Part shown: positions 2,972-36,743 of the stretch, piece after piece | Numbering within the stretch: position 1 is the first letter of the stretch | Layout of the letters: each line of letters begins with the position of its first letter | Assembly: GCA_023265025.1 (NCBI GenBank) | Contig: JAHFUP010000052.1 | Span: 1 to 36,874 of the forward strand | DNA from: Acidimicrobiia bacterium | Lineage (GTDB): Bacteria; Actinomycetota; Acidimicrobiia; Acidimicrobiales; AC-14 | Direction of reading: 5' to 3' | DNA length: 36,874 nucleotides | Made by a program: the position numbers and the translations under genes | The notes under the pieces: model-generated | Seen by the model: only the letters and a program-made list of their open reading frames with translations | What the model was told of the DNA's origin: nothing | Databases searched by the model: none

Positions 2972-2980
2972 CTGCGCCTC

Positions 2981-3700: not shown

Positions 3701-3714
3701 GCGAATCCTCCGGT

Positions 3715-10393: not shown

Positions 10394-10438
10394 TGCTCCA
10401 CCCTCCCTGCGGGAGCGTGGACCAGTGATTGCTTGTCG

Positions 10439-10459: not shown

Positions 10460-10961
10460 ACCCGGCGTCCCCGTGGCCGTTCACCGGCGTCTCGCCCCGG
10501 CCGGCCATCTCGAGGTAGAGGATGACCTGGCCGACGGTCAGTGCCGCGCACTCGTCGGGTGTCCAGCCGAATCGCCGGCTCAGCTCGAAGCACGCCCGGG
10601 CCATCGGCTCCCGCACCGTGTCGGCCAGCGCGTCCGCACCCATGGCCAGGCCGCTGATGCGGTTGACCTCGGCCAGCAGGAACTCGACCAGGCCGGTGTG
10701 CATCCGCTGCACCTGGTCGACCGTCACCGCCGGCTGCACCAGCGCCTGCTGCACCATGAGCACGCTCGTGAGCGTCCCGTCCTCACGGGCCGCCCGGTGG
10801 ATGCGCATGACGTCGGCCAGCACCAGCGGCCGGAGGACGACCTCGCCGCCGCCCTCGGCCCGTGCCGGGTCGAGCACCTCGGCCGGCAGGGCGACGCGAT
10901 GGGTGACCGTCCCTCCGAGGAGGAGGTCGTCGACGGAGAGGGTTGGGCCTGCCAAGCTCAC
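10458..10961 (-). CDS. Small tail protein after the tube, assembly-chaperone position
   Basis: 167 residues from GTG 10961, which overlaps the tube stop (GTGA); the ATG of the longer frame at 11048 would lie deep inside the tube gene. The N-terminal third has strands (VSLAGPTLSVDDLLLGGTV), then helical segments rich in Leu and Glu (TGLVEFLLAEVNRISGL, RACFELSRRFGWTPDECAA). Tail chaperones and Afp6-like proteins lie just after tube genes, so an assembly or tube-baseplate adaptor role is likely. I do not recognise a named family. Confidence 0.68.
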   Translation of the reverse strand: MSLAGPTLSVDDLLLGGTVTHRVALPAEVLDPARAEGGGEVVLRPLVLADVMRIHRAAREDGTLTSVLMVQQALVQPAVTVDQVQRMHTGLVEFLLAEVNRISGLAMGADALADTVREPMARACFELSRRFGWTPDECAALTVGQVILYLEMAGRGETPVNGHGDAG

Positions 10962-11461
10962 GTGCTGGTGTCGTCGGCGCTGATCCAGAGGGCCCGGAAC
11001 CCGACGGACTCGAGTACGAAGTCGTCCTCGGGCATGGTGAAGCTCCAACCGTCGAGCTTGACCCCGTGGACGGTGACCGTGGCCGAGTTGCCCGGGAAGC
11101 CGGCGTTCTCCATGCGCAGGCTGAGGTTGAACGTCGGGCTGACGAACGCGCCGGCTGGGCGGCTGCCGCCGGCGCCCTCCCCCAGCATCAGCTTCAACAA
11201 CGCCCCGTTGACATGGGCCCGACCGATGGCGCCCTTGATGTTGACGTTCCCCGGACGCAGCTCGGTGGCGTAGCGCTGCCCCAGCTCGTGGAAAGGCTTC
11301 ATCTCGGACGCGACCTCCACGGTCACGCCGGTGGCCCGCCCGATCGGCGTCAGCCCGTAGGTGTCGTTCACCGCCCCCGCGGCGTCGCCTTCGGGCGTCC
11401 CCGTCTCGACGGCCAGGCTGATGGCGCCGTCCATCCCGGTGAACACGTGCGTATTCGGCAT
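10958..11461 (-). CDS. Tail tube protein
   Basis: 167 residues, start MPNTHVFTGMDGAISLAVE, with AGGAGCT six bases upstream. Strand-rich protein with a central helix (MKPFHELGQRYATELRPGN) and C-terminal SFTMPEDDFVLESVGFRAL, the pattern of T4 gp19/Hcp-like tubes of contractile systems. It follows the sheath gene by 39 bases. Stacked hexamers form the inner tube that is driven out on sheath contraction. Confidence 0.9.
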   Translation of the reverse strand: MPNTHVFTGMDGAISLAVETGTPEGDAAGAVNDTYGLTPIGRATGVTVEVASEMKPFHELGQRYATELRPGNVNIKGAIGRAHVNGALLKLMLGEGAGGSRPAGAFVSPTFNLSLRMENAGFPGNSATVTVHGVKLDGWSFTMPEDDFVLESVGFRALWISADDTST

Positions 11462-11500
11462 TGCAGCTCCTTTCGTGCGTGAGTACCGGCCGGACCGCCT

Positions 11501-12937
11501 CTACTGCAGCGTCATCGTCACCCGGATGAAGTCGATCGAGAACGTGGGCAGCAACGTCATCGCCACCGCGGCGATGCCGTTGATTTCCTGCGACCGGGTA
11601 GCGCTGACGTCGAGCTCGTAGGCGGTGAGCATCTCGTCCTGCACCATCTGGGACAGGAACCCGTCGAGGGTGGCTTTGAGCGCGGCCCGTACCCGCGCGT
11701 TGTTGAGCTTGCCGATGTAGGGGTCGGCGCCCATGCGCACCCCGGTCTTGGCGTAGTCGACCGTGCGGCGGACGCTGATCTGCTTGAACGCGCCGGTGTC
11801 GGTGGTGATGCCCTTGACGATCTGGTGGCCCAGCTTCCGGCGGACGAGCAGGACGCGGTTCTGGAGCAGGTTCTTCAGCGCGGTCGACGTATAGGTGACG
11901 TCGAGCTCGGCGATCGGCAGCGTCTGGTTGGTGAGGCTGATGTGAGGGGCCAGGGCGGACAGGCGCCCAGCCACCAGGGCGGCGGTGTAGGCCGGCGGCA
12001 GGGGGGTGAGCGCGTTGAGCCCCGCCTCCTGCACCTTGATGCCGGGCGCTACCAGCACCACGCGTTTGTCGGCCACGTTCTGCGTGTCCGCCAGCACGCC
12101 GGTCACGTCGGTGGCGGTGCCCGACGCCCGGGCGCCCAGGACGGCGATGCGCTCGTGGCCGTCGTTCTCGGTCCGCTCGACGTGGGTCAGCAGGGGGGCC
12201 GCGGCCCGGTCGGCGCCCACGCCGGCCACCAGCACGATGTTGACCGGCTGGTTCTCGAGCAGGCCGAGGCCGCCGGCGATCTGGGCGCCGGTGACGTTGG
12301 GGAGCGACGTGCCGCCCGTGAGCCTGATGTGGGGGTCGGATGTGGCGGCCAGGTTGGCGTTGGCCGCGGCGGGGTTGGCGTCGGGGTCGCCGGCGGTCAC
12401 GAGTTGCGACGTGGCCAGGGCGGCTCGGAGTGCGCCCACGTTGGCGCCCTCGAAGGACTCGCGGACGTTGGCGCCGTAGGAGACGATCAGCCGGAACCGG
12501 GACGTCGCGTCGGTGCCCTGGTCGACGACCTTGACCACGAGGTCGTTCCCCCAGCTTCCGGGGGTGGACGCCGTGAGCTTGAACGCGGTGGTGGTCGGCG
12601 ATGCCGGCACGTTGGCCGTTGCCGCCACCGGATCGCCGTTGGCGATGCGGACCGCGAACACGCTGCGCGCCCCGCCCGCGAAAGCTTGCTCAAGCGCCCG
12701 GGTGAGCGTGAGGGGCGTGGCGGCCTCGGCCGGGGTGCCGAAGCGGTCGGCCGGGCCGAAGATGTCGACGACCTCGGACAGGCTGCCGAGCGGGACGACG
12801 GTGTTGAGGGGTCCCCGGGCCGCAGTGCCGACGATGCCGATGTTGCCGGTCGAGATGCCCCCGACCCCGATCAGCCCCTCGGCGCGGACCTCGATGTAGG
12901 TCCCGGGGATGACCATCTCCGCGATTGCTTCGCTCAC
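11501..12937 (-). CDS. Contractile tail sheath protein
   Basis: 478 residues from GTG 12937 behind an AGAAGGGA element. The N terminus (VIPGTYIEVRAEG, then GNIGIVGTAARGP) is the common sheath handshake region, and the C terminus (QEINGIAAVAMTLLPTFSI, then DFIRVTMTLQ) is the second handshake strand of the phage_tail_sheath family. The middle (HVERTENDGHERIAVLGAR) fits the domain exposed on the outside of the sheath. This gene defines the locus as a contractile particle. The size is normal for compact sheaths of Afp type. Only one sheath gene is present, whereas Afp carries three. Confidence 0.96.
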   Translation of the reverse strand: MSEAIAEMVIPGTYIEVRAEGLIGVGGISTGNIGIVGTAARGPLNTVVPLGSLSEVVDIFGPADRFGTPAEAATPLTLTRALEQAFAGGARSVFAVRIANGDPVAATANVPASPTTTAFKLTASTPGSWGNDLVVKVVDQGTDATSRFRLIVSYGANVRESFEGANVGALRAALATSQLVTAGDPDANPAAANANLAATSDPHIRLTGGTSLPNVTGAQIAGGLGLLENQPVNIVLVAGVGADRAAAPLLTHVERTENDGHERIAVLGARASGTATDVTGVLADTQNVADKRVVLVAPGIKVQEAGLNALTPLPPAYTAALVAGRLSALAPHISLTNQTLPIAELDVTYTSTALKNLLQNRVLLVRRKLGHQIVKGITTDTGAFKQISVRRTVDYAKTGVRMGADPYIGKLNNARVRAALKATLDGFLSQMVQDEMLTAYELDVSATRSQEINGIAAVAMTLLPTFSIDFIRVTMTLQ

Positions 12938-12964
12938 GGCTCAGTCCCTTCTCTGGTTGGTCCG

Positions 12965-13834
12965 TCAGTCGGTGACGGTGAAGGCTTCGGTGACAGCGGG
13001 ATCGGGTGTGGCGTCGATGGTGCCGGCGACCTCGACGCGGCGGATGGGCCCGCCGGCGGTCGAGATCACGGGGTCAGTGCGTTCGAAGGAGAAGCGGTAG
13101 CGCAGCACGCGGCTGCGCGTGGTCGCCGGCAGACCCAGGCCGAAGAGGGCGACGGTGACCGGACCCAGTCCGAGCGGTTCGACCCGTCGGAGCCCGGTGC
13201 CCACCGGGATGGGAACGCGGGTGAGGGCGTCGTCCACCGAGGCGGACAGGTCGGCGGTGGCGGCCGACGAGGCGGCGTAGACCTCGACGGCCACCTCGCC
13301 CTGGTGCCGCTCGGTCCGCACCTCCCACGCCCCGACGAAGTAGCCGAGGGCGAGCGTCCCCGACGCCGGCAGCGGGTCGCCGAACCGCAGCGTGCCCTCC
13401 TGCGGGTCGACCTGCACCTGCGTCGGTCCGGCCGGCGGGCCGGCCACCGGTGTGAACGTGATCGGCCCCAGCCGTACGAGGAGGTCGCCGGCGGCGAACG
13501 GCTGGTCGCCGACGCCGTCGGCCCGCACGACCGAGCCGTGGGGCAGATGCACGAGCCGGCGGTCGGGGGAGAGCAGCCCGACGTCCTCGCCCGGTAGGTG
13601 GAGCACAGGGTCGGTCAGGTCGAGCGACGTGTCCACCCGCAGCGCCCCCGTCATCAGCGACGCCGGCGTCCGGCCGAGGGCGGGAAGGGGCTGCTCGGCG
13701 CTCAGGATGCTGATGGCCACCGCCGGCAGGTCGGCCCCGCCGGTGGGCTGCGTGCCGCCCGCGGCCGGCGCCGGCGGCGGGAGGGTGGCGGTCAGGTGGT
13801 TGGCGAAGGCGTCGACGACGGCGGTCAGCCCCAT
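12965..13834 (-). CDS. Unknown tail-operon protein upstream of the sheath
   Basis: 289 residues; its ATG overlaps the stop of the preceding gene (TGATG). The N-terminal segment (MGLTAVVDAFANHLTATLP) is helical, followed by an extended strand-rich body with LPHGSVVRADGVG and a C-terminal strand set (VTVALFGLGLPATTRSRVLRY). No family recognised. A gene before the sheath often encodes a tail terminator (Afp16/Pvc16 type), which is the most likely role by position. The composition is that of the neighbouring structural genes. Confidence 0.62.
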   Translation of the reverse strand: MGLTAVVDAFANHLTATLPPPAPAAGGTQPTGGADLPAVAISILSAEQPLPALGRTPASLMTGALRVDTSLDLTDPVLHLPGEDVGLLSPDRRLVHLPHGSVVRADGVGDQPFAAGDLLVRLGPITFTPVAGPPAGPTQVQVDPQEGTLRFGDPLPASGTLALGYFVGAWEVRTERHQGEVAVEVYAASSAATADLSASVDDALTRVPIPVGTGLRRVEPLGLGPVTVALFGLGLPATTRSRVLRYRFSFERTDPVISTAGGPIRRVEVAGTIDATPDPAVTEAFTVTD

Positions 13835-14424
13835 CAGGCGAAGACATCCCGGAGCTGGCCCAGCATGCCGTCGAGCGGGGCGGTGGCCGACTTGGCCGCG
13901 TCGAGGGCGCTGCGCAGCGGCGGCGTCGGGTCGCCGATGCTGGGGATGTCGCCCAGCAGGTTGGGCAGGTCGAGCCCGGCCAGGCCGAGGTCGGCGAGCG
14001 CGTCGAGCATGCCGTCGAGGCCGGCGCCCAGGTCGTCGATGGGCGTGGGCGGCGCCGGCGGCTCGACATACTGGCGCAGCCGTATGCGGTAGCGGAACGA
14101 CCCGGCCGACTGGTTGACCTCTTCGACGTCGAGCGCCTCGACGAGCACCTGCTCGAGCTCGGTGGCCGTCGTGATGTCGGCGACGAAGCTGACGGGGTCG
14201 CCGGCGAGGAACAGGGCCCGGAGGTCGGCGAGGAACTGGTCACGGGCCTCGTCGCCCTGGAGCGACCCGACGATCTCGACCACCAGGCTGTCCCGCCCGA
14301 GGTCCTGATGGAGGTCGCCGGCCAGGCCCGGGACGGCGAAGCGGGCCAGCCGGCGCCCTTCGGTGGTGGCGATCCGCTCGATCCGGGGGACCTCCCAGTC
14401 GCCGATCATCGGCCGGACGATCAC
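13834..14424 (-). CDS. DNA-circularisation-N-like baseplate protein (Mu gpN-like)
   Basis: 196 residues from GTG 14424; a second possible start is ATG 14409. The first 130 residues (GRRLARFAVPGLAGDLHQDLG, VEIVGSLQGDEAR, FRYRIRLRQYVEP) match the N-terminal fold of Mu gpN-type proteins: a promoter-near strand set, a GD-rich turn and a strand ending in an aromatic YRIRL. The C-terminal third (SALDAAKSATAPLDGMLGQL) is helical. gpN-like proteins join the hub or tail tip in Mu-type tails. This is the first gene of the tail operon in the window. No strong Shine-Dalgarno element is visible, so the start is the least certain part. Confidence 0.72.
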   Translation of the reverse strand: MIVRPMIGDWEVPRIERIATTEGRRLARFAVPGLAGDLHQDLGRDSLVVEIVGSLQGDEARDQFLADLRALFLAGDPVSFVADITTATELEQVLVEALDVEEVNQSAGSFRYRIRLRQYVEPPAPPTPIDDLGAGLDGMLDALADLGLAGLDLPNLLGDIPSIGDPTPPLRSALDAAKSATAPLDGMLGQLRDVFA

Positions 14425-20050: not shown

Positions 20051-20614
20051 CTACACGGCGCTGACGATCAGGATGGCGCCGAAGACGAAGAACGCCAGGG
20101 CGGCGCCGATCTTGATAGTGCGCTCCGGCAGGCGGCTGCCCAGCGCGCCGCCGGCGACGATGGCCAGGGCGTCCGCCGCCACCATGCCGAGGGTGGAGCC
20201 GGCCCACGTGCCCCACGCACCCTCGGTCGTGGCCAGGGTGATGGTGGCCAGCATCGTCTTGTCGCCCAGCTCGGCCAGGAAGAACGCCACGCTGGCCGCC
20301 ACCACCGCGGACCGGTTCGACCCTTCCGCCTTGGCCTCCTCCTCCTCGGACAGCGTGTCGCCTCGGAGCGTCCAGGCCCCGAACCCCAGGAACGCCACGC
20401 CGGCCACGATGGAGATGGCCGTCGTGGGCAGGGCGGCGCCGACGGTCACCCCGACGATGACCGACACGGCGTGGACGACGGCGGTGGCGACGGTGATGCC
20501 GGCCAGCACCGGCAGCGCCCGGTAACGGGCGGCGAAGGCCAGGGCCATCAGCTGGCTCTTGTCGCCCAGCTCGGCGACGAAGATGACGCCGAAGCTCAGG
20601 AGCAGCGCATGCAT
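20051..20614 (-). CDS. UPF0016 / GDT1-TMEM165 family cation transporter
   Basis: 187 residues with six hydrophobic segments in two inverted repeats, each carrying the E-x-G-D-(KR)-(TS) signature: ELGDKS at about residues 15-20 and ELGDKT at about 113-118. An acidic loop (LSEEEEAKAEG) joins the halves. The family exports Mn2+ or exchanges Ca2+/Mn2+ for protons in bacteria, yeast and mitochondria/Golgi. No Mn-sensing riboswitch is seen in the 48-base gap upstream. Confidence 0.94.
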   Translation of the reverse strand: MHALLLSFGVIFVAELGDKSQLMALAFAARYRALPVLAGITVATAVVHAVSVIVGVTVGAALPTTAISIVAGVAFLGFGAWTLRGDTLSEEEEAKAEGSNRSAVVAASVAFFLAELGDKTMLATITLATTEGAWGTWAGSTLGMVAADALAIVAGGALGSRLPERTIKIGAALAFFVFGAILIVSAV

Positions 20615-25296: not shown

Positions 25297-25342
25297 CCGG
25301 ACGCGCCGCCGGTGAGGGATATCGGGCGGTACGATCTGGGGG

Positions 25343-25711
25343 ATGGGTTCCGCCACGATCCGGCGTCTCGCCTTGGTGGCGGCCGTGGTGCTGCTGGCGC
25401 CGCTCTGGTGCCGGCCGTCGGTTGTGGTGCGGGCCGTGCAAGTGCCCGGCTCGATGGTCGTGGGCCTCGCCTCCGACGGTGCCCCGGCGGCGCCGGCCAT
25501 CCGCCGGCAGGCGGCCGGGGCGTGGTCGATCGTGGGCTTGCGGACCGACCTGGGCCGGCGCCTGCTGTCGGTGGGCGTCGTGGCCCTCCTGTCGCTGCTC
25601 GTGGTCGGGCCCTGGTCCGTTCTGGAGAGCCGGCGGTCGGCTCCATCCCCGCTGGCCCGCCGCCGGCACGCAATCGCCCTCCGGGCTCCTCCCCTTCCCT
25701 CCTGCGTCTGA
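25343..25711 (+). CDS. Small membrane protein, unknown
   Basis: 122 residues from ATG 25343, opening with a basic stretch and a hydrophobic segment (LALVAAVVLLAPLW) and a second one at about residues 75-92 (LLSVGVVALLSLLVVGPW). The N and C termini are both predicted inside. The Arg-rich C-terminal tail has a final Cys. It ends 86 bases before the RCK channel gene on the same strand, so the two may be cotranscribed. No family recognised. Confidence 0.6.
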   Translation: MGSATIRRLALVAAVVLLAPLWCRPSVVVRAVQVPGSMVVGLASDGAPAAPAIRRQAAGAWSIVGLRTDLGRRLLSVGVVALLSLLVVGPWSVLESRRSAPSPLARRRHAIALRAPPLPSCV

Positions 25712-25797
25712 CAGTCACAACGGCGAGCGCGCCGCTGGGCGCGTGCAGGGGAGTGCAGCCGTCCACCATCACCTGGTTCGCAGGAGGGAATTGTCTT

Positions 25798-27756
25798 ATG
25801 TCCACACGCCGCTCGTTCCGGAGGCGTCTTCGCTACAAGTTCGACACGATCCTGGCCCGGGGCACCGTCGCAGTCATCCTGTGGCTGGGCCTGATCACCG
25901 CCGCCGTGGTGGTGGTCACCGGCACCCTGCTCTCGGTCCTCGAGATCGCCGTCCATGGTCACCAGGTCGGGATCATCGAGGGCATCTGGCAGAACATGCT
26001 TCGCAGCTTCGAGCCGGCGGCCATGGAGGCGGACAGAGGCTGGCCCCTCCGGCTCCAGTCGCTGTTCATCGTCGTCTTCGGCATCTTCGTCGTGAGCTCC
26101 CTCATCGGGCTCATCGCCAGCGGCATCGAGCGACGGGTCGAGGAGATGCGCAAAGGCCGCAGCGAAGTTTTGGAGGACGGCCACGTCCTCATTCTCGGCT
26201 GGTCGGAGAAGATCTTCCCCGTCATCCACGAGCTGATCCTCGCCCACAAGGGCCAGCGCGACAGCGTCATCGTCGTCATGGCCGATCACGACAAGATCGA
26301 GATGGAGGACGAGATCCGAGCCCGCGTCCACCACATCGGTCACACCCGGATCGTCTGTCGGAGCGGGGATCCGTCGAGCCCTGCGGACCTGGCGCTGGTC
26401 AGCCCGTACGAGAGCCGGTCGGTGATCGCGCTGGGCAACAACCACCTGGACGGCGATGCCCAGGTCATCCGCTCCGTGCTGGCTCTCATGGACGACGACC
26501 GGTTCTCCGACCTGCGCATCGTCGCCGACTGCGCCCTCCCCGAGAACGCCGATGCGCTGCGGGAGGCCACCGGCGGCCACGCCATCGCCATCGCCTCATC
26601 CGACCTCATCGCCCGGGTCACGGCGCAGGCGTGCCGCAACACCGGTCTCGGCACCGTGTTCGAGGAGATCCTGGACTTCGGGGACGTGGACGTGTGTTTC
26701 CACGACGACCCGCGTCTCGCCGGCCGCCGGTTCGACGACCTCGTCTCCTCCTACGAGCGGGGCTCCGTCATCGGTGTGCGGTACCCCGACGGCGTGGTGG
26801 ACCTGAACCCGCCCGACGACCACGTCATGGCCGCCGGCCACTCGGTGGTGCTGGTGACCGACGGGGTCGAGCGCGTCGTTCTGCAGCCGGCGCCGGTGGA
26901 GCCGGACCTGCAGTCACCGACGGTGGCGGCCACGAGTGCGGCCACCTGCACCAACCTCCTCCTCGTCGGCTGGAACCCGCTGGCGCCCCGCATCCTGTAC
27001 GAGCTCGACAAGTGGGCCATGCCCGGGTCGAGGATCCGGGTCCTGATCGACGGGACCCTCGTCAGTGAGGAGGAGGTGGCCGTCCCGGGTCTCCGGAACC
27101 TCCAGTTGTCGGTGACGACGACCTTCACTTCGTCACCCCATAAGGTCGCCGAGCTGTGCTTCTCCGAGGACTTCGAGCGGGTCGTCGTGCTGTGCTACCG
27201 CAGCGGCCTCACCGCCGAGGAGGCCGACGCCAGGGCCCTCATGACCCTCCTGCAGCTGCGCCAGTTCCGCCAGGAGTACCCCGAGCGCGGCGATCGCATG
27301 AGCATCCTCACCGAGGTCCTCGACATCCGTGACGTCAAGCTGGCCAAGGTCGCCGGCGCCGAGGACTTCATCGTCAGCGAGCGGATCACCGCGCTGATGC
27401 TGGCCCAGCTGGCGGAGGTGCCCGACCGGGAGAAGGTCTTCGCCGACCTCTTCGAGACGTGGGGCTCGGAGGTTTGCATGCGCCCCGTCTCCGATTACGC
27501 CCGCCCGCAGCCCGGCACGCCCTTCGGGGCCTACGTCGCCGGCGCCCACCGGCGCGGCCACCTGGTGATTGGCTACCGGACGACCGGCCTCCGGGGCAGG
27601 GAGCTGGCGTCGGCGATCCACCTCGACCCGCCGAAGTCGGCGCCGGTCGACCTGAAGCCCGACGACCGGCTGATCATCGTCCTGAGCCGGGGGAACGACC
27701 CGGCGCTCGCCGGTGCCGCCGCCACGCCGGCCTACGAAGGGACGGCCGCCGGCTGA
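25798..27756 (+). CDS. CASTOR/POLLUX-like RCK-domain ion channel
   Basis: 652 residues from ATG 25798 with CAGGAGGGA upstream; the longer frame upstream belongs to no protein. TM1 about residues 22-48 (AVILWLGLITAAVVVVTGTL), a pore-like loop with WQNMLRSFEPAAM, TM2 about 83-108 (LFIVVFGIFVVSSLIGLIA), then a basic linker and two tandem nucleotide-binding RCK units starting GHVLILGWSEKIFPVIHEL (about 126) and TNLLLVGWNPLAPRIL (about 384). This is the architecture of the plant CASTOR/POLLUX/SYM8 nuclear channels and their bacterial relatives (K+ or Ca2+). A cation channel gated by a cytoplasmic ring is expected. Confidence 0.88.
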   Translation: MSTRRSFRRRLRYKFDTILARGTVAVILWLGLITAAVVVVTGTLLSVLEIAVHGHQVGIIEGIWQNMLRSFEPAAMEADRGWPLRLQSLFIVVFGIFVVSSLIGLIASGIERRVEEMRKGRSEVLEDGHVLILGWSEKIFPVIHELILAHKGQRDSVIVVMADHDKIEMEDEIRARVHHIGHTRIVCRSGDPSSPADLALVSPYESRSVIALGNNHLDGDAQVIRSVLALMDDDRFSDLRIVADCALPENADALREATGGHAIAIASSDLIARVTAQACRNTGLGTVFEEILDFGDVDVCFHDDPRLAGRRFDDLVSSYERGSVIGVRYPDGVVDLNPPDDHVMAAGHSVVLVTDGVERVVLQPAPVEPDLQSPTVAATSAATCTNLLLVGWNPLAPRILYELDKWAMPGSRIRVLIDGTLVSEEEVAVPGLRNLQLSVTTTFTSSPHKVAELCFSEDFERVVVLCYRSGLTAEEADARALMTLLQLRQFRQEYPERGDRMSILTEVLDIRDVKLAKVAGAEDFIVSERITALMLAQLAEVPDREKVFADLFETWGSEVCMRPVSDYARPQPGTPFGAYVAGAHRRGHLVIGYRTTGLRGRELASAIHLDPPKSAPVDLKPDDRLIIVLSRGNDPALAGAAATPAYEGTAAG

Positions 27757-28219: not shown

Positions 28220-30997
28220 ATGACGATGAGCGTCACCAAGGTTCTCCTCGACATACTCGTCGTCCTCCTCGCGGCGAAGGCGGCCGCCGAGGTCGCGGAG
28301 CGGCTGAAGGTGCCGGCCGTGGTCGGGGAGATCCTCGCCGGCATCCTCATCGGCCCTTCGCTCCTCGGGCTGGTCCACGGCGACGACGTGCTGCGGGTCC
28401 TCGGCGAGCTGGGCGTGATCCTCTTGCTGCTCGAAGTCGGCATGGAGATGGACCTTCGGCAGATGGCCGCGGTCGGCCGGGCGTCGCTCGCGGTGGCGAC
28501 CGTGGGCGTCGTCGTCCCCTTCACCGGCGGGTACGCGGTGGCCTCCGCGCTCGGGCTGCACGGCAACGAGGTGCTGTTCGTGTCCGCGGCGCTGACCGCC
28601 ACGAGCGTCGGCATCACCGCACGGGTCTTCGGCGACCTCCGGGCCCTCGCCTCGGTCGAGGCCCGGACCGTCCTCGGCGCGGCGGTGGCCGACGACGTGA
28701 TGGGCCTGGTGATCCTCACCGTCGTGGTCCGCATCGCCTCGGAGGGGAGCGTGTCGGCCCTGGCCGTGGCCGGGATCGTCCTCGTGGCGGTGGCCTTCCT
28801 GACCGTCACGGCGGCCTTGGGCGTGCGGGTCGCACCGCCGAGCTTCGCCTTCGTGGCCCGGGCCAGTCGCTCCAGCGGGACCCTCGTCGCCGTGGCGCTG
28901 GCCTTCACCCTGGCGGTCGCCGAACTGGCCAGCGCGGCGAAGCTGGCGCCGATCGTGGGCGCGTTCGTCGCCGGCATCGCGGTGGGCCGGAGTCCGGCCG
29001 CCGACCGCATCCGGCGCGAGCTCACGCCGGTCGGCCACCTGCTGATCCCGGTGTTCTTCCTCCAGATCGGCCTCGACGCGAACATTCGTGAGTTCGGCCA
29101 CCCGAAGGTGCTCGGGATGGCCGCCGTCCTCCTGGCCGTGGGCATCGCGGGCAAGCTGGCCGCGGCGGCCGGCATGTGGGGGGCGCCGGGCGACAAGTTG
29201 CTCGTCGGCATCGGGATGATCCCGCGTGGTGAGGTGGGCCTCATCTTCGCCACGATCGGGCTCCGTGAGGGCGTCCTCGGCCCCGACATCTACGCCGCCC
29301 TGCTCCTCGTGGTGCTGGCCAGCACGCTGATGACCCCGCCGATCCTGAAGTGGCGCCTCATGAAGCTCCGGGCCGCGGTGCCGGCGCCAGGACCGGTCGT
29401 CCCCCGGCCCGAAGGCGGATGGCTGGTGAGAACGCCCGGCGCCGGCGGGGGGACGGTGGAGCTGGCCGCGGAGCCGCCGCCGGGACTGGCCCTGCCGGTG
29501 GCGTTCGAGGCCGCGCTCGCCTGCCGGCAGGACCAGCCCGGGCCGGCGCTTCTCGGCTGGCTCGGCCGGCTGCCCGAGGGCCCGCTGCGCTGGGACCGCA
29601 CCGCCCGCGACCGCTTCTTCGAGCTGCTCTCCTCGGCCGGCCCGCGGTCCTGGCGCTTCCTGTCGGTCACCGGCGTGCTCGATCGGGCGTTCCCGGAGCT
29701 GGGCGAGGCGATCCACCGCCGCCAGACCGACCCCCATGAGCTCGACCCCGCGGGCGCGCTGCGCTGGCCCCGCCTCGACCGGGCCCAACACCTGCCCGGC
29801 GTCTCCAAGCTGAAGAACCCCGAGCGCCTCTTTCTCGCCGCGGTCATCCTGGACGCCAGTGACGGCGATCCTTCGGCTGTCGCCGTGGCCCGCCGGATCG
29901 TGCAGCGTCTGGATCTGGGCGCCGCCGCCGAGCAGGCGGTGGCCGGGCTCGTCGCCGACGCCGAGCTTCTGCCCGCAGCCGTGCGCCGGGCCGACAGCCT
30001 CACCGAGGAGGCCGTCCTCCAGCTGGCCGTCCACCTGCGCTCGGTCGAGCAGGCCGCCGCCCTGTTCCTGCTCGCGGCCACGGGCGACGAGCTGCGGCCG
30101 TGGGAACAGCAACGCCTGGCTGAGCTGGAGGCACGTGTCCGCGTCGTGCTGGCCCACCCCGAGCTGACGGGACGGACCGCGGCCAACGCAGTCGAGCAGC
30201 GTCGGAACGAGGCCGGTCGCCTGACCACCGACCCGGCGGTCCGGGACAGGATCGCCGCGGCGCCGCGGGCCTACGTGCTGGCGACCGTGCCGTCTGACCT
30301 CGCCCGCCAGGCCACCTTGTGCGAACCGGCCCCGCGTGGTGATCAGGTGCGGGTGGCCGTGAAACCCCTCGGCGACGGGCGCTGGCGGGTCGACGTCGTC
30401 GCCCGTGACCGGATCGGATTGCTGGCCGCCGACACCCACGCCCTGGGCGAGCGGGGACTCGACGTGCTGGAGGCCACCGTGGCGACGTGGGGGGACGGTT
30501 GCGCCCTGGCGTCGTTCGTGACGGCGGCGGACACAGTGCCGGATCCGGCAGGGATCGAGGAGGGGGTGCGGCGCAGCATCCAGGCACGGCCGCCCGGTGA
30601 ACCGCTGCCCGACGCGGTGGTGTCCTTCGACGGCCAGGCCTCGCCCTGGCACACCGTCTGCCGGGTGGAGGCGCCCGACCGCCGAGGCCTCTTGCAGGCG
30701 GTGACCGCGGCCTTGGCCGCCGCCGGCGCGTCGGTCCACTCGGCTCGCGTCGCCACCGCCGGCGGGCGGGCCGCCGACGTGTTCGAGCTCACCGATCGCA
30801 ACGGCGAGAAGGTCGGTCCGGATGTCGAGGAGGCCTTCCGGCGCATCCTGGACGCCGGCGCGCCGGCGCCGAAACGCCGGCGGATGGGGTGGCCGGGGAC
30901 CCGTGGACAGTCGCGGAACGAGGCGATGTCAAGGGGGACGACGGAAGACATCAACACGCAACAATCCGGTGATCGTCCGGAAATGCCTGCCTCCTAG
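28220..30997 (+). CDS. CPA2 cation/proton antiporter fused to GlnD-like HD and two ACT domains
   Basis: 925 residues. Residues 1-385: about twelve membrane segments of CPA2 type, with VPAVVGEILAGILIGPSLLG, TATSVGITARVFGDL, the ion-binding pair D158-D159 (VADDVMGL) and PRGEVGLIFATIGL. Residues about 420-655: a region that follows the HD part of GlnD (VTGVLDRAFPELGEAIHRRQ, DPHELD), but where GlnD has HDIGKG this protein has LDASDGD at 544-550, and the later His pair is lost, so hydrolysis is unlikely. Residues about 720-770 and 810-866: two ACT domains (RDRIGLLAADTHALGERGLD; APDRRGLLQAVTAALAAAGA). GlnD ACT domains bind glutamine. The nucleotidyltransferase part is absent. An amtB follows 42 bases later. 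Inferred: an antiporter governed by glutamine or nitrogen status. Confidence 0.9.
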   Translation: MTMSVTKVLLDILVVLLAAKAAAEVAERLKVPAVVGEILAGILIGPSLLGLVHGDDVLRVLGELGVILLLLEVGMEMDLRQMAAVGRASLAVATVGVVVPFTGGYAVASALGLHGNEVLFVSAALTATSVGITARVFGDLRALASVEARTVLGAAVADDVMGLVILTVVVRIASEGSVSALAVAGIVLVAVAFLTVTAALGVRVAPPSFAFVARASRSSGTLVAVALAFTLAVAELASAAKLAPIVGAFVAGIAVGRSPAADRIRRELTPVGHLLIPVFFLQIGLDANIREFGHPKVLGMAAVLLAVGIAGKLAAAAGMWGAPGDKLLVGIGMIPRGEVGLIFATIGLREGVLGPDIYAALLLVVLASTLMTPPILKWRLMKLRAAVPAPGPVVPRPEGGWLVRTPGAGGGTVELAAEPPPGLALPVAFEAALACRQDQPGPALLGWLGRLPEGPLRWDRTARDRFFELLSSAGPRSWRFLSVTGVLDRAFPELGEAIHRRQTDPHELDPAGALRWPRLDRAQHLPGVSKLKNPERLFLAAVILDASDGDPSAVAVARRIVQRLDLGAAAEQAVAGLVADAELLPAAVRRADSLTEEAVLQLAVHLRSVEQAAALFLLAATGDELRPWEQQRLAELEARVRVVLAHPELTGRTAANAVEQRRNEAGRLTTDPAVRDRIAAAPRAYVLATVPSDLARQATLCEPAPRGDQVRVAVKPLGDGRWRVDVVARDRIGLLAADTHALGERGLDVLEATVATWGDGCALASFVTAADTVPDPAGIEEGVRRSIQARPPGEPLPDAVVSFDGQASPWHTVCRVEAPDRRGLLQAVTAALAAAGASVHSARVATAGGRAADVFELTDRNGEKVGPDVEEAFRRILDAGAPAPKRRRMGWPGTRGQSRNEAMSRGTTEDINTQQSGDRPEMPAS

Positions 30998-31039
30998 CTT
31001 CCTTCTCGAGACTGGACAACCTTTCGAGGAGGGACTTTG

Positions 31040-32611
31040 GTGCGTCAGAAACGACTAAGAGCCGCGGTCGCGCTTGCGTGCGTCGCCGGCACTCTCTGGC
31101 TCACCGCCGGGATGGCCTTGGCCAGTCCGACGGATGCCGGTGGGATCACAGGCGACGAGCTGACCCATGGCGAGATCAGCCTGAACCTGCTGTGGATTGT
31201 GATCGGCGCGGTGCTGGTGATCTTCATGCAGGCGGGCTTCGCGCTCGTCGAGACCGGCTTCTGCCGGGCCAAGCACGCGGCCCACGTCGTCTCCACGAAC
31301 TTTGCCATCTTCGGCATCGGATTTGTCGCTTTCTTCGCCGTCGGCTTCGCCTTCATGTTCGGAGGCTTCAGCTTCCCGGGCGTGTTCGGCATGGACGAAG
31401 CCGTCGGCGGTGCGCTCGTCGGCTCCGGGAACGCCGTGTTCCTGTGGAAGGGCGGCTTCTTCCTCGGCGGGGGCGCCTACGACGTCAGTGTCCTCGCGTT
31501 CTTCCTCTACATGGTGGCCTTCATGGACACGACGGCCACGATCCCGACAGGCGCCATGGCCGAGCGGTGGAAGTGGAAGGCGTTCGTCCAGTGGGGCCTC
31601 TTCTGCGGCGCCATCTACTACCCGCTGTTCGGCGCCTGGACCTGGGGTGGCGGATGGCTCGCTCGCCTCGGCGCCAGCATGGACTGGGGTCACGGCTACG
31701 TCGACTTCGCCGGCTCCGGCGTCGTCCACATGATGGGTGGTGTGGCCGGCCTCGCCGGTGCACTGGTGCTGGGTCCCCGCATCGGCAAGTTCGGGCCGGA
31801 CGGCAAGCCCCGTCCCATGCCGGGCCACCACATTCCGATGGCCATGCTCGGTACGTTCATCCTGCTGTTCGGCTGGTTCGGCTTCAACGCCGCATCGACG
31901 TTCGGCGCCACCGACAACCGGTTCGCGGTGGTGGCTGCCAATACCGCCATCGCCGGCGCCTTCGGGGCGGTGATCTCGATGGTGTGGGTGCAGTTCCGGT
32001 CGTCGGACAAGAAGCCCGACCCGGGCATGATGTGCAACGGCATGCTGTGCGGCCTGGTGGCCATCACCGCGCCGTGCGCCTTCGTGCAGCCCTGGGCCGC
32101 GGCGGTCATCGGCTGTCTCGCCGGCGTGCTGGTCGTCGAGGGAGTGTGGTTCATCGAGAAGCGCGGCATCGACGACCCGGTCGGGGCCATCTCGGTCCAC
32201 GGTATGGGCGGGGCCTTCGGCGTGCTGTGCGTCGGCATCTTCTCCGACGGCAGCTACGGCGGCGACTGGAACCTCACCGGCTCGGACACCACCAACATCC
32301 ACGGCATCCTCTACGGGGGTGACGGCGCCGGCCAGCTGATGTCCCAGATCGCCGGCGTCCTTACGATCGGCATCGTGATGTTCGGCATCGCGTACGCCTT
32401 CTTCAAGATCCAGGACAAGCTGATGAAGGGTGGCATCCGGCCCTCGGCCGAGATCGAGCTCGAAGGCATGGACCTGCCCGAGATGGGCGTCCTGGCCTAC
32501 CCCTCCTTCTACGGCTCCAACCAGCACGTGGAGGTCGGTGGCAAGAACGGCTCCGACGTCCACACGCCGATGGGAGCGCCCATCGCCGTGGGCCAGGAGA
32601 AGTCACGCTGA
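31040..32611 (+). CDS. amtB: Ammonium transporter AmtB
   Basis: 523 residues from GTG 31040, six bases after GAGGAGGG; a TTG three bases earlier is too close to it. Signal peptide (VALACVAGTLWLTAGMALA) followed by eleven membrane segments. Family marks: ALVETGFCRAKHAAHV, DTTATIPTGAMAERW, and the twin pore histidines H230 (GVVHMMGG) and H387 (SVHGMGGAF). A cytoplasmic C-terminal tail of about 60 residues is longer than usual. No glnK or full glnD follows, unlike the common actinobacterial amtB-glnK-glnD order; instead the GlnD-like fusion is upstream. Confidence 0.96.
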   Translation: MRQKRLRAAVALACVAGTLWLTAGMALASPTDAGGITGDELTHGEISLNLLWIVIGAVLVIFMQAGFALVETGFCRAKHAAHVVSTNFAIFGIGFVAFFAVGFAFMFGGFSFPGVFGMDEAVGGALVGSGNAVFLWKGGFFLGGGAYDVSVLAFFLYMVAFMDTTATIPTGAMAERWKWKAFVQWGLFCGAIYYPLFGAWTWGGGWLARLGASMDWGHGYVDFAGSGVVHMMGGVAGLAGALVLGPRIGKFGPDGKPRPMPGHHIPMAMLGTFILLFGWFGFNAASTFGATDNRFAVVAANTAIAGAFGAVISMVWVQFRSSDKKPDPGMMCNGMLCGLVAITAPCAFVQPWAAAVIGCLAGVLVVEGVWFIEKRGIDDPVGAISVHGMGGAFGVLCVGIFSDGSYGGDWNLTGSDTTNIHGILYGGDGAGQLMSQIAGVLTIGIVMFGIAYAFFKIQDKLMKGGIRPSAEIELEGMDLPEMGVLAYPSFYGSNQHVEVGGKNGSDVHTPMGAPIAVGQEKSR

Positions 32612-32686: not shown

Positions 32687-33988
32687 TCACCGGGCCCGTG
32701 ACGTCCACCACAACGCCGTTCCGCCAACCGTGGCGGCGACGAGGGACGCGGCGAGCACGCCGAGCCGGGCCGAGTCCTGCAGCGGGCCGGCGTCGAAGGC
32801 CAGCTCGGCGACGAAGAGCGACACGGTGAAGCCGATGCCCGCCACCGCCGCGGTGGCCACCACCATCCCCCACGTGGAGTTCTCGGGGAGGCGGGCGACG
32901 CCGAGGCGGTGGCCCAGCCAGGCGGCGCCGGCGATGCCGGCGGTCTTGCCGAGCACCAGGCCCAGCATGACCCCGGCGGTGACGGCGACGGCGCCGGGCG
33001 CGTCGAAGGCGTCGCGCCTGAGCGTGACGCCGGCGTTGGCCAGCGCGAACACCGGCACGACGAGGAAGCTGGTCCAGGGGTGCAGGGCGTGGGCGATCCG
33101 CTCCGCCGGCGACACCGCGTGCTGTGCGAGGCGGGTCATCGTCACCAGCTCGGCCGCCGTCGGCTCGTCCGCCAGGTCGGCGGCCCAGCCTCGGGCCACC
33201 GTGGCCGGCACGAAGTTGACCGTCGGGGTGAGCAGCCCGAGCACCACGCCGGCGATGGTGGCGTGCACTCCGGAGACGAACGTCGCCAGCCACAGGGCGG
33301 CACCGAGCACGACGTAGGGGACCGTCCACACGACACCGGCGCGGTTCACGGCCAGGATGGCGAGGACGACAAGGGCGGCGAGGCCGAGGAACCCGGGGCG
33401 CAGGCCCGACGAATAGAACGCGCCGATGACGATGATCGCCCCGATGTCGTCGACGATCGCCAGCGTCAGCAGGAACAGCTTGAGCGCCGCCGGCACGCCA
33501 CGCCCGAGCACGGCGACCACGCCGACGGCGAAGGCGATGTCCGTTGCCATGGGGATGCCCCAGCCCCTCGCGCCCTCGCCGCCGGCGGTGACGGCGAGGT
33601 AGACAGCCGCCGGGACGACCATCCCGCCGACGGCGGCGATGGCCGGCATGGCCGCCGCCCTGGGGTCCCGGAGGCTCCCGTGGACCAGCTCCTGCTTGAT
33701 CTCGAGGCCGACGACGAAGAAGAAGACGGCCATGAGGGCGTCGTTGACCCAGTGCTGGAGGTCCTCACGCAGGACGTAGCGTCCGAAGCCCACGCTGACC
33801 TCTGTGTGCCAGAGGGCCTGGTAGCCGGCACTCCACGGCGAGTTGGCCCACACGAACGCGACGACCGCGGCGACGAGGAGGACGATCCCGCCGGCCGCCT
33901 CTGTGTCCAGGAACCGCTGGACGGACGTGGGCAGCCTGCGTCCGGGCAGGGCGGCTGCGGCCTGGTGGCGATCGGCGTGAGTGGGCAC
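32687..33988 (-). CDS. nhaA: Na+/H+ antiporter NhaA
   Basis: 433 residues from GTG 33988, with CAGGAG eight bases upstream (a longer frame starts at 34060). Family marks: FLDTEAAGGIVLLVAAVVAFVWAN, FFFVVGLEIKQELVHGSLRD, GIPMATDIAFAVGVVAVLG, LTLAIVDDIGAIIVIG with the paired Asp residues, and GIGFTVSLFVAELAF. It expels Na+ or Li+ in exchange for two protons. It follows the NAD-kinase-like gene by about 95 bases and may form its own unit. Confidence 0.96.
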   Translation of the reverse strand: MPTHADRHQAAAALPGRRLPTSVQRFLDTEAAGGIVLLVAAVVAFVWANSPWSAGYQALWHTEVSVGFGRYVLREDLQHWVNDALMAVFFFVVGLEIKQELVHGSLRDPRAAAMPAIAAVGGMVVPAAVYLAVTAGGEGARGWGIPMATDIAFAVGVVAVLGRGVPAALKLFLLTLAIVDDIGAIIVIGAFYSSGLRPGFLGLAALVVLAILAVNRAGVVWTVPYVVLGAALWLATFVSGVHATIAGVVLGLLTPTVNFVPATVARGWAADLADEPTAAELVTMTRLAQHAVSPAERIAHALHPWTSFLVVPVFALANAGVTLRRDAFDAPGAVAVTAGVMLGLVLGKTAGIAGAAWLGHRLGVARLPENSTWGMVVATAAVAGIGFTVSLFVAELAFDAGPLQDSARLGVLAASLVAATVGGTALWWTSRAR

Positions 33989-34083
33989 CGGGATGGACTC
34001 CTGGCGTTGGCGAACACGGTTCAGTTCGCCGACCAGGCTTCCCGGCACTCCACCACCCATGTGTGGCTTCCCCAGTCTGACAG

Positions 34084-34980
34084 CTACAGCAGGCGGAGGC
34101 GGCGAGCCGACAGCCCGACGGTGAGCCGCTGGCCCCAGGTCAGCGAGACGGCGTCACTCTCGATCCCGTCACCGAAGAGGACCAAGCGGTCCGACTCGGC
34201 GACGATGGCCAGCTGCATGTCGCCGGCAAGCACGCCCTCGGTGTGGTCGGTGCCCGTCGCCGGCGACGGCCACGCCTCGCGGACGAACCAGCACAGGGCT
34301 GCGTCGGTTGGGCGGGGGAGCGGCAATGCGCTGTGGCGCTCGAGCCAGGCCGAACGGCACCAGCCCGTGGCACCGGTGCCGGTCCCTACTAGGAGCCCGG
34401 ACGACGACTGGCGCTCACGGATGCCCTCGCCGAGCTCGATGCGGTAGCGCGCCGACTGGTGGCCGGGGTCGCCGACGTAGACCTCGTTCAGAGCCAGGAG
34501 CTGCTGGCCGTCGTCGGTGCGGGCCTCGACCATGGACCGCAGCTCGGCGTGCCGGTCGACGTCCGCCGAGGCGGCGACGTGGAGCAGGTCGCCGGCGTCG
34601 GTCGCCCCGTGACGCACGAGCACGCCGGCGTTGCGACCCGGCTCCGGGTCGACCCCGATGACGGGCTGGCCGTCGAGGTACTTGGCCACGTTGGCCACCA
34701 GGCCGTCCTGGCCCACGACCACGACGATGTCCTCGGGGCCGAAGAGGAACCGGTCGAGGTCGCTCCGGCCGACCTGGCCCCGGCGCCAGTCGGCCGGGAT
34801 GGCGGCTCCCACGGTGGCGACCGCGCCGTGCATCGCGTGGTGGCGGGCCTCGACCTCGTCGAGGCTGCGCTCGCGGGAGCGTAGGAAGAACGCGGCCTGC
34901 TGGCGGGTGCCGTGGCGGGCGACGAGCCCGTCGAGCTCAGTCGGCCGAGTCACGACCACGACCCGGGGGGCGACGGCCAC
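34084..34980 (-). CDS. NAD kinase family protein with altered GGDG motif
   Basis: 298 residues from GTG 34980, three bases after the SPFH stop. The fold is that of ATP-NAD kinases: [10 protein letters not shown] start, [36 protein letters not shown], the conserved NE in [11 protein letters not shown] and [17 protein letters not shown]. The usual GGDGT phosphate loop reads GQDGL, so activity or substrate may differ. The length and the missing second kinase feature resemble orphan family members. Cotranscribed with the SPFH gene under an NrtR-type operator, which links it to NAD metabolism. Confidence 0.82.
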
Positions 34981-34983
34981 CGT

Positions 34984-35979
34984 TCACCGTCCCAGCCCGA
35001 GCCGGGCCAGCACGGGAATCAGCAGGTCGGGGGTGATGCTCAGGTTGGCGATGGAGGGCAGGTTGGCGGCCAGGTCGCGGGCGGCCAGGGCCAGCAGGAC
35101 AGCGGTGTCGACGTCGCGGTAGGCGGCCAACTTGGCGACCTCGATGGCGGCATCGGCATTCCCCACGAGCGTCGTGGTGTCGGCCTGGCCGGCGGCCACG
35201 ATGCGCTGGTGGTCGGCCTGGGCCTCGGCCTGGATGCGGCCGGCGGCGGCCTGCTCCTCGGCCCGCCGCCGCTCGTTCTGGCCCCGCTGGGCGACCAGCT
35301 GCTCCTCCTGGCGGGCCAGCTCGATCTTCTGCAGCTCGTTCTCGGCGATGGCCCGCTCCCGGTGCACGGCGTCGGCCCGGCGCTCGTAGGTCGCCCGGTC
35401 GGCGTCCTGCTGCACGGCCTCGCGCGTCGGCGTCTGGAGGGCGCGCTCGACCTCCGGCTCGGCCCGCAGGGCGACGACACGAACGTCGAGGATGCCGATG
35501 CCGGTCTCCACCAGGCGAGCGTCGCCGGCGAGCCCCTCGTCGATCCGCTGGCGAACGGTGGTCAGGCCCTCGGCCAGGGCTTGGCGCAGCGGCATGTGGG
35601 CCAGCAGGTCGAGGGCGTGCTGCTGGGCCAGCTCGGTGAGGAGCCCGCCGAGCTGGTCGAGGGGGCTCGCCGTCCATCGGCCGGCCTCGGGGTCGATGCC
35701 GAAGTCGATGCGGGTCGCCGCCACCGCAGGGTTCACGACCCGGTAGGTGACCGTCGCCTGGACGGTGACGTCCTGGAAGTCGAGGGTCCGCCCGTGAAAG
35801 AGGAGCGGCTGCTCGCGGTCGTCGACCGGGACCTCGCTGAGGGCGGCGGTCAGCGGCCTGGACCAGAAGGAGACGCCGGTCCCTTCGCGTACGACCCTCC
35901 CCTTCCGCTGGTACCGGATGTACGCGGTGGGCTGGGACCGGAGGTGGCGGAGGAACACGGATCGGTGGATGTCTGCCAT
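34984..35979 (-). CDS. SPFH (band 7) domain protein
   Basis: 331 residues, ATG 35979 with AGAGGAG upstream. The first 190 residues form the SPFH domain (LRSQPTAYIRYQRKGRVV, VTVQATVTYRVVNPAVAAT, RLVETGIGILDVRVVALR). Residues about 195-275 are a charged coiled coil (RERAIAENELQKIELARQEE). No N-terminal membrane anchor is obvious. Family members scaffold membrane microdomains. Placed at the head of an operon with the NAD-kinase-like gene, directly behind an NrtR-type operator. Confidence 0.86.
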   Translation of the reverse strand: MADIHRSVFLRHLRSQPTAYIRYQRKGRVVREGTGVSFWSRPLTAALSEVPVDDREQPLLFHGRTLDFQDVTVQATVTYRVVNPAVAATRIDFGIDPEAGRWTASPLDQLGGLLTELAQQHALDLLAHMPLRQALAEGLTTVRQRIDEGLAGDARLVETGIGILDVRVVALRAEPEVERALQTPTREAVQQDADRATYERRADAVHRERAIAENELQKIELARQEEQLVAQRGQNERRRAEEQAAAGRIQAEAQADHQRIVAAGQADTTTLVGNADAAIEVAKLAAYRDVDTAVLLALAARDLAANLPSIANLSITPDLLIPVLARLGLGR

Positions 35980-35994
35980 GGGTTTGGCTCCTCT

Positions 35995-36014
35995 GTCGTC
36001 AACTAGACGATAAC
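35995..36014. promoter_or_regulatory. Imperfect second NrtR-like box
   Basis: GTCGTC (35995-36000) and GACGATAAC (36006-36014) with a five-base spacer; the inner five bases of each arm pair exactly and the right arm resembles that of the main box. It lies just upstream of the SPFH start. Confidence 0.5.
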
Positions 36015-36022
36015 TGGCCCTG

Positions 36023-36049
36023 GTGTAATCGTCAAGATGACGATTACAC
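36023..36049. promoter_or_regulatory. NrtR-type operator
   Basis: Perfect inverted repeat: GTGTAATCGTC (36023-36033), spacer AAGAT, GACGATTACAC (36039-36049). This resembles the palindromic boxes recorded for NrtR regulators (GTNATNGTC-N5-GACNATNAC). It lies between the divergent SPFH and Nudix genes, eight bases before the Nudix start, so the Nudix protein very likely controls both directions. Confidence 0.85.
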
Positions 36050-36056
36050 TGGCGAC

Positions 36057-36743
36057 GTGCCGTCGTTCCCCACGTACGCGGTGACCGTCGACCTCGTCGT
36101 GCTGACCGTGCGCGACGGCGCGCTGGCCGCCCTGCTGGTCCGCCGGGCCGCCGCGCCCTATCGCGGCCGGTGGGCCCTACCCGGCGGGTTCGTCCTTCCC
36201 GATGAGGACCTGGCCGGCGCCGCCGCCCGCGAGCTGGCGGAGGAGACCGGGCTCGTCCCCGATGCCGTCCACCTGGAGCAGTTGCGGACCTACGGTGCTC
36301 CGAAGCGTGACCCCCGGGGCCGCGTGGTGACCGTCGCCTATCTCGCCCTTCTGCCGGACCTGCCGGCGCCGGTCGCCGGCACCGACGCGGCCGCCGCCCG
36401 CTGGTGGCCGGTGGAGGGCGTGCTGGGCGAGAGCGTACGGCTGGCCTTCGACCATGAGCGCATCGTGGGTGACGGCGTCGAGCGGGCCCGGGCCAAGCTG
36501 GAGTACACGCCGCTCGGCGCGGCGTTCTGCCCGGCCGAGTTCACGATCGCCGAGCTCCGGCAGATCTACGAAGCGGTCTGGGGGACGACGCTCGACCCTC
36601 GGAACTTCCACCGCAAGGTGACGGGAACACCGGGCTTCGTCGTGGAGACGGCCGGCTCGACGACGCGGAACGGGGGTCGCCCGGCGCGGCTCTACCGGCG
36701 GGGCGAGGCCACGCTCCTGCACCCGGCCATGCTGCGACCCTGA
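36057..36743 (+). CDS. nrtR: NrtR-type Nudix regulator
   Basis: 228 residues from GTG 36057. Residues 1-140 form a Nudix domain (VTVDLVVLTVRDGALAALLV, WALPGGF) with an intact Nudix box at residues 44-66 (G-x5-E-x7-REL-x-EETGL). Residues about 150-225 form a winged helix (LGAAFCPAEFTIAELRQIYE, NFHRKVTGTPGF) as in NrtR. NrtR proteins sense ADP-ribose or related NAD breakdown products and repress NAD genes by binding 21-bp palindromes. The intact box leaves enzymatic activity possible, unlike some family members that have lost it. Confidence 0.93.
   Translation: MPSFPTYAVTVDLVVLTVRDGALAALLVRRAAAPYRGRWALPGGFVLPDEDLAGAAARELAEETGLVPDAVHLEQLRTYGAPKRDPRGRVVTVAYLALLPDLPAPVAGTDAAAARWWPVEGVLGESVRLAFDHERIVGDGVERARAKLEYTPLGAAFCPAEFTIAELRQIYEAVWGTTLDPRNFHRKVTGTPGFVVETAGSTTRNGGRPARLYRRGEATLLHPAMLRP

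Follow-up and report, generated by a model that had tools for sequence, protein, structure and literature searches.

A NapA-type antiporter joined to a catalytically degraded GlnD-derived module beside an ammonium transporter gene in Acidimicrobiia

The stretch of DNA analysed here, referred to as the window, comprises 36,874 nucleotides of contig JAHFUP010000052.1 from an Acidimicrobiia bacterium (GenBank assembly GCA_023265025.1). Its forward strand carries a gene (28220..30997, ATG start) whose single open reading frame encodes a 925-residue fusion of an antiporter with part of GlnD, the bifunctional PII uridylyltransferase/uridylyl-removing enzyme. The N-terminal domain (residues 1-385, 28220..29374) is a CPA2 antiporter of the NapA type, within which the D158-D159 pair is encoded at 28691-28696 and K312 at 29153-29155. 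It is followed by a GlnD-derived central/HD region, here called the pseudo-HD (residues 421-700, 29480..30319), and by two ACT domains at about residues 708-790 (30341..30589) and 798-885 (30611..30874), each with a DRxGLL loop whose glycine is G733 in the first and G823 in the second. Next on the same strand lies a gene for an Amt ammonium transporter of a divergent subfamily (31037..32611), the second amt of this genome. An earlier note, made from the sequence alone, had described the arrangement as an antiporter fused to a GlnD-like glutamine sensor in tandem with amtB; its account of the architecture largely stands, with corrections to the HD region, the nitrogen genes and the candidate ion that are given below.

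The Amt gene begins 42 nt behind the fusion if its GTG start at 31040 is used, the spacing given in the earlier note, or 39 nt behind it with the TTG start at 31037, and it is preceded by GAGGAGG. Its product matches PF00909 far above the cut-off (342.5 bits against 23.2, E 3.6e-102) and falls slightly below that of TIGR00836 (336.6 bits against 343.3). Two of its histidines line up with histidines in the other Amt of the genome, and we take them to be the twin-His pore pair. A twin-His motif of Amt proteins is named in the available part of PMC9040831.

The fusion is encoded by one reading frame in related genomes as well. Chance or an assembly artefact was ruled out as its source, because the same fusion recurs across many other assemblies; one Acidimicrobiia metagenome-assembled genome (MAG) carries a protein 77% identical to that of the window. 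The ratio of nonsynonymous to synonymous substitution (dN/dS) against the sister genome is 0.08 for the antiporter, 0.22 for the pseudo-HD, 0.29 for the ACT pair, 0.39 for the linker and 0.54 for the tail; the antiporter, pseudo-HD and ACT pair are under purifying selection. Structures were predicted as monomers, and the model of the whole protein has a mean predicted local distance difference test (pLDDT) score of 79.3 and a predicted template-modelling (pTM) score of 0.48, so the placement of domains in the full-length model is not reliable.

In the antiporter domain, residues 18-378 match PF00999 in Pfam (E 2.9e-63), and NapA of Thermus thermophilus is the closest PDB relative by profile (E 1.9e-95), with KefC far behind (E 1.8e-15). 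The domain aligns with NapA structure 4bwz at E 7e-61, placing D158, D159 and K312 on NapA D156, D157 and K305, which bears out the claim that the aspartate pair is intact, and a Foldseek match to NapA 5bz2 reaches a TMt of 0.88. D, D and K stand at the transport site in all 44 scorable rows of the family (42 fusions and two doubtful members, L037 and L133, described below), the electrogenic signature of Asp-Asp in transmembrane helix 5 and Lys in transmembrane helix 10, while the unwound helix reads A-T-S followed by V in 43 rows and by I in one. Kef-type K+/H+ antiporters, KefC among them, possess a C-terminal RCK/KTN nucleotide-binding domain. No RCK/KTN family (TrkA_N/RCK) is found among the Pfam matches of the fusion at E up to 1, and the KefC and KefB NCBIfam models score it at 61.1 and 54.5, below their cut-offs of 752 and 804.

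In the available text of PMC6181914, an Asp at motif position 6 and a Lys at position 8 are tied to electrogenic exchange, and in CPA2 proteins a non-polar residue at position 4 is associated with Na+ selectivity and a threonine there with K+. By this rule, which is a phylogenetic correlation and whose motif positions were mapped via the NapA alignment rather than via E. coli NhaA, the fusion antiporter is predicted to be a Na+-type electrogenic CPA2 exchanger. Ammonium, named as a candidate ion in the earlier note, is not favoured by the transport-site motif; the motif appears to favour Na+, and the rule itself is silent on NH4+. A variant of the ammonium idea holds that the antiporter exchanges NH4+ (or K+) against H+ and serves as a safety valve expelling excess ammonium at high glutamine. 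The neighbouring amt is in keeping with such a valve, but the A-T-S-V helix (V 43, I 1 of 44) combined with D-D-K reads, as mapped via NapA, as the Na+-type electrogenic pattern, threonine occupies the fourth position in the K+-type CPA2s described in that portion of PMC6181914, and the nearest solved relative is a Na+/H+ antiporter, far ahead of KefC. We therefore consider the valve quite unlikely.

Profile comparisons indicate that the C-terminal half of the fusion derives from GlnD and is colinear with it. Positions 371-843 of the 850 in TIGR01693 (UTase_glnD) match residues 455-875 at E 3.4e-32, with a score of 111.6 bits that is below the model's cut-off of 519.4. In hhalign, an 11-member family profile and the true GlnD encoded in the sister genome (L054) align across 419 columns, corresponding to GlnD 330-790, at a probability of 99.1 and an E of 6.2e-19. 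The nucleotidyltransferase is missing, as the earlier note had it: no GlnD_UR_UTase or nucleotidyltransferase family occurs among the fusion's Pfam matches at E up to 1, and the family alignment begins only at GlnD residue 330. The HD-like region and two ACT domains that the note described are both present, with the correction that the HD region is without its catalytic residues. Six positions (H, H, H, D, H, D) that are invariant in 12 of 12 true GlnDs, presumably the metal ligands used in uridylyl removal, are unchanged in 0, 2, 1, 34, 2 and 1, respectively, of 48 rows (the 45 fusions, a free-standing relative, L155, and the doubtful L037 and L133). With five of the six site residues nearly all lost, an active HD hydrolase in the fusion is ruled out.

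The ACT pair, recognised as two PF01842 stretches (the second at residues 812-877), by the strands and helices of the model and by shared alignment columns, keeps its ligand loops. An ACT pair is present in 41 rows, from 40 fusions and L155. The first domain has its loop glycine in 37 of them and alanine there in 4, and the second has the glycine in 39. Both glycines and the D-R-x-G motif are kept family-wide, including in members outside the class. As far as the excerpt of PMC3173338 goes, the ACT loop glycine is located where E. coli PGDH binds serine, and the ACT domains of GlnD are cited as glutamine sensors. A dead HD site together with a kept ACT ligand loop is the pattern expected of a regulator derived from an enzyme. 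The same dead site would also suit a structural remnant that aids folding or dimerisation and senses nothing, as would the absence of the ACT pair at three separate places of the tree and its faster evolution relative to the antiporter; the loop glycines and D-R-x-G motif, however, are kept across the family and beyond the class, the dN/dS of the pair is 0.29, and we judge a mere remnant very unlikely.

For residues 401-887, structure prediction gave a confident model (mean pLDDT 88.4, pTM 0.69), and a Foldseek search with it against solved structures returned no match below E 0.001. VIA-align superposes its first 249 residues on the A-adding enzyme 3wfq from residue 133 to 448 (Z 17.6, rmsd 4.2, 232 aligned), a Z score to be read with care as the region is mostly helical; the first 132 residues of 3wfq, which lie outside the match, are presumably its nucleotidyltransferase head. 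For the remainder of the model, the matches are enzymes that contain ACT domains (Z 7-12), for example aspartokinase (3l76) at Z 11.8 and the large glutamate dehydrogenase (9hv0) at Z 11.3. A PDB sequence search with one actinobacterial GlnD gave no related chain at E up to 0.01.

GlnD-like modules also occur outside the fusion. A free-standing 470-residue protein with a pseudo-HD-like region and an ACT pair (L155 7530-8942, genome G468) branches just outside the fusions and is perhaps the form of the module before it joined an antiporter. A double ACT part resembling that of GlnD is also carried by separate proteins, encoded at L028 1378-2280, L051 2493-4016, L052 5084-6046 and L055 9140-9892; the protein in L028 adjoins an antiporter fusion, and in L051 the double ACT part stands behind what appears by eye to be an alpha/beta hydrolase.

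Sampled genomes were confined to the window's own phylum; one pattern scan of genome contigs gave 17 loci. The fusion is present in 31 of 395 genomes of the class sample, the window's own included, and 37 genomes of that sample match the C-terminal profile at E <= 1e-40, comprising the 31 with fusions and six with what we take to be true GlnDs (five of them inspected in fetched DNA, and G062 assigned by score). Within the phylum sample it is found in 5 of 396 genomes, two of them (family f96) outside the class; the seven genomes with a match at E <= 1e-60 are five with fusions, one with the free-standing L155 and one with a true GlnD. The second match in G452 was assigned to true GlnD by score. 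Taking the 45 listed loci, removing second copies (L094 of L038, L098 of L030) and adding the window, L153, L154 and L133 gives 47 loci, and removal of L037 and L133 leaves 45 unique fusions. After the antiporter, those two carry some 200 further residues, an extension that is not matched by the window's HD region, and the L037 extension aligns to the family profile with a probability of 6.1 and an E of 0.0061 (hhalign). The reading frame of L104 is interrupted, and its HD and ACT parts are read in a different one.

In a tree of 57 rows, the 44 fusion rows, among them L037 and L133 with a very long branch, group in a single clade that excludes the 12 true GlnDs (support 100), with L155 branching first and then the two f96 members, which suggests one old fusion that has been mostly inherited. 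L035 and L104, which are too short, and L088, whose contig begins within the gene, were left out. One locus, L036, comes from a record titled Acidobacteria bacterium, yet its fusion nests among actinobacterial ones, so that it represents either a misnamed MAG or a transfer. On plasmids, partial matches to the protein occur in 276 records, none of which covers 80% of it in one place.

The earlier note had proposed checking whether amt neighbours this architecture. An Amt gene lies about 35-610 bp from the fusion in 30 of the 45 loci (32 of 47 with both doubtful ones), on either side and either strand; one of them, L032, was scored as linked on a 124-residue Amt fragment at a contig end. Linkage looks ancestral and later lost, because the two earliest-branching fusion members, from f96 outside the class, are Amt-linked. 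The fetched stretch contains no Amt in 15 loci (L035, L044, L089, L091-L093, L095, L100-L102, L104, L108, L110, L112, L113), of which L035 and L108 are truncated where their contigs end and L095 is flanked on one side by only 0.6 kb. A true glnD is nearby in four Amt-linked loci (L033, L090, L096, L105), and glnK is nearby in L033, L034, L036, L096, L097, L103 and L105-L109. A stand-alone winged-helix gene of 86-106 residues (Trans_reg_C, just above cut-off) directly precedes the fusion, or Amt where no fusion was found (L118), at L034 5702-5962, L090 9112-9432 and L118 5558-5830, and is a possible dedicated regulator.

The glnK-bearing loci invite a different account, in which the pseudo-HD is a docking site for PII (GlnK) at the membrane beside Amt, control runs from the GlnK-Amt complex to the antiporter (or the reverse), and the ACT pair is an optional modifier. 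PII is the natural partner of GlnD according to the part of PMC3173338 available, amt and glnK both stand beside the fusion in L033, L034, L036, L096, L097, L103, L105-L107 and L109, with glnK between fusion and amt in five of these (L034, L103, L106, L107, L109), and L114 has an antiporter and pseudo-HD adjoining amt without an ACT pair. Many loci, the window's among them, nevertheless lack glnK in the fetched stretch, and just one of the three ACT-less members adjoins amt. Docking of PII is thus unlikely in our estimate.

A sensor carried on the transporter is the natural reading of the fusion, given the descent of its C-terminal half from GlnD, the lack of a nucleotidyltransferase and the recurrent amt neighbour. 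Counted by genome, the same Amt clade (at least 60% identity) occurs in 21 of 31 genomes with the fusion versus 23 of 364 without it (Fisher p 1.3e-15). Glutamine is the first candidate ligand, since the ACT pair is that of GlnD and the gene often occurs with amt and sometimes with glnK or glnD; from the sequence relationships it is the likely one. We give about an even chance to an electrogenic NapA-type antiporter that a pseudo-GlnD module regulates from the cytosolic side, with an amino acid, most likely glutamine, bound at the ACT pair, and that is tied to Amt.

Several observations weigh against this sensor reading. In three of the 45 loci (L112, L113, L114), no frame of the fetched DNA encodes an ACT pair; these loci sit at three separate places of the tree, only L114 among them adjoins Amt, and sensing would accordingly be dispensable in some hosts. 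Nine loci without amt (L091-L093, L095, L100-L102, L104, L112) lie near leucine-biosynthesis genes, so the ligand might be another amino acid. A simple glutamine model does not explain either group. The test of co-occurrence with the Amt clade ignores shared ancestry, and the 23 genomes that carry this clade but no fusion show it to be common on its own. Of 20 fusion-less Amt loci fetched, 12 have a glnK match and two (L129, L133) have a similar antiporter nearby, in neither of which was a GlnD part recognisable; L129 stands outside the fusion count. L037 and L133 are likewise Amt-adjacent antiporters whose C-terminal extension hardly ties to GlnD. Finally, general nitrogen control need not rely on the fusion, given the genome's own amt-glnK-glnD cluster described below.

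The nine leucine-linked loci raise the prospect of the same design with a branched-chain or other amino acid, not glutamine, as the ACT ligand. Nearby genes read as leuC, leuD, leuB, ilvE, leuA or cimA by their first residues, with the families confirmed by Pfam in L092, L095 and L100 (Aconitase, Aconitase_C, Aminotran_4, Iso_dh, LeuA_dimer), and the nearest fold neighbours of the modelled ACT domains include threonine- and isoleucine-regulated enzymes. Eight of the nine fall within one ten-row part of the tree, together with the Amt-linked L096 and the unlinked L089, and the ninth, L104, is outside the tree. On the other hand, the nearest sequence kin found for the ACT pair are those of GlnD, most loci adjoin amt, and the leucine genes lie at least 0.6 kb from the fusion and often on the opposite strand. 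A column comparison of amt-linked with leucine-linked members found no ACT column that separates the two groups at a strict threshold. A ligand other than glutamine consequently seems improbable to us.

Within its host, the fusion is an addition. The absence of glnK and glnD reported in the earlier note is true of the window, where neither was seen, but both are present on contig C60 of the same genome, which holds its one glnK, another amt and a true glnD together. Replacement of a lost nitrogen system is ruled out, and the fusion is better described as an added system.

Other genes of the window include further ion transporters. An NhaA Na+/H+ antiporter gene (32687-34060, reverse strand) is convergent with amt and occupies the same position in L027, at 71% identity, which suggests that this spot gathers ion transporters. 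Upstream of the fusion, 25312-27756 (forward strand) encodes a large protein whose middle domain is of the Castor/Pollux ion channel type and which also has a weak RCK-like match; a 76% identical copy also lies upstream of the fusion in L027. A GDT1-type divalent cation/proton antiporter gene (20051-20614, reverse strand) lies about 8 kb from the fusion, and at 34084-36743 an SPFH/Band_7 gene and a neighbour are followed by an NrtR-type NUDIX regulator. A phage-tail-like gene run (753-14424, reverse strand), with baseplate J at 5127-6899, a sheath initiator/gp25 at 6896-7393 and a tail sheath at 11501-12937 by Pfam and further genes, unassigned, among them, is perhaps a contractile injection system or tail-like particle.

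The fusion shares features with several known systems. NapA (4bwz, 5bz2) has the same fold and transport-site residues, with 38% identity in the fold alignment; its solved chains of 384-394 residues comprise the transport domain only, whereas the fusion has about 540 further residues. GlnD shares the central/HD region and ACT pair, colinear over 330-790, but the fusion lacks the nucleotidyltransferase, has lost the HD-site residues and is joined to a membrane protein. By sequence it is thus a NapA-type antiporter and not a GlnD, and it probably works like a ligand-gated exchanger. KefC (8bxg, 8by2), the glutathione-regulated K+/H+ exchanger, is, as far as the source excerpt describes it, likewise a CPA2 antiporter under a small cytosolic ligand; it differs in being K+-type and in its RCK-type regulatory domain, of which none was found in the fusion. 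PtsN is linked to nitrogen via PTS-Ntr. In the opening text of PMC11808508, unphosphorylated PtsN inhibits the K+/H+ antiporter YcgO, likewise a bacterial antiporter under a nitrogen-linked regulator, although YcgO belongs to the CPA1 family, is regulated by a separate protein and has no GlnD part. The sperm Na+/H+ exchanger SLC9C1, as presented in the portion of PMC10620091 available, is also fused to sensory domains from another protein class; it is eukaryotic, and those domains are voltage-sensing and cyclic-nucleotide ones rather than ACT. None of KefC, SLC9C1 and YcgO uses a GlnD-derived sensor. In line with the earlier note, which knew of no such design, no description of an antiporter-GlnD fusion was found, by title or abstract start, among the open-licence PMC papers listed, and the part seen of a 2023 review of prokaryotic Amts (PMC10433425) does not mention glnD, operon or fused.

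Returning to the sensor-on-transporter reading, we infer what the fusion binds, how and in which direction it is gated, which ion it moves and what role it has in the cell as follows. The sensory half of an enzyme would have moved onto a transporter while the enzyme was lost, and selection would have kept the transport site and ACT loops and let the catalytic residues go. An amino acid, most likely glutamine, may bind the two ACT domains. In GlnD, the HD region lies between sensor and catalytic output; in the fusion, the dead HD region could relay the signal from the ACT pair to the transport domain. Glutamine would then open or shut an antiporter predicted to move Na+ out and H+ in, so that a change in nitrogen state adjusts antiport and Amt together, and the electrogenic exchanger may help balance the charge and protons that ammonium uptake and assimilation bring into the cell. 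The fullest version, a glutamine-gated Na+/H+ antiporter in which the glutamine sensor of the PII cascade has been freed from its enzyme, has lost catalysis and directly controls membrane energetics beside an ammonium transporter, as a second output of nitrogen control bypassing PII, is one that we advance tentatively, at rather less than an even chance.

Bacterial nitrogen signalling is taught as a path from glutamine to GlnD, to PII and on to its targets. Here, a GlnD-derived sensor is apparently wired straight into a cation/proton exchanger, with the enzymatic step skipped. If this is true, nitrogen status would be linked to sodium, proton and charge balance within one polypeptide, and the output of a GlnD-type ACT pair would be readable as ion flux. 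The fusion also offers an ACT-plus-pseudo-HD module for structural work.

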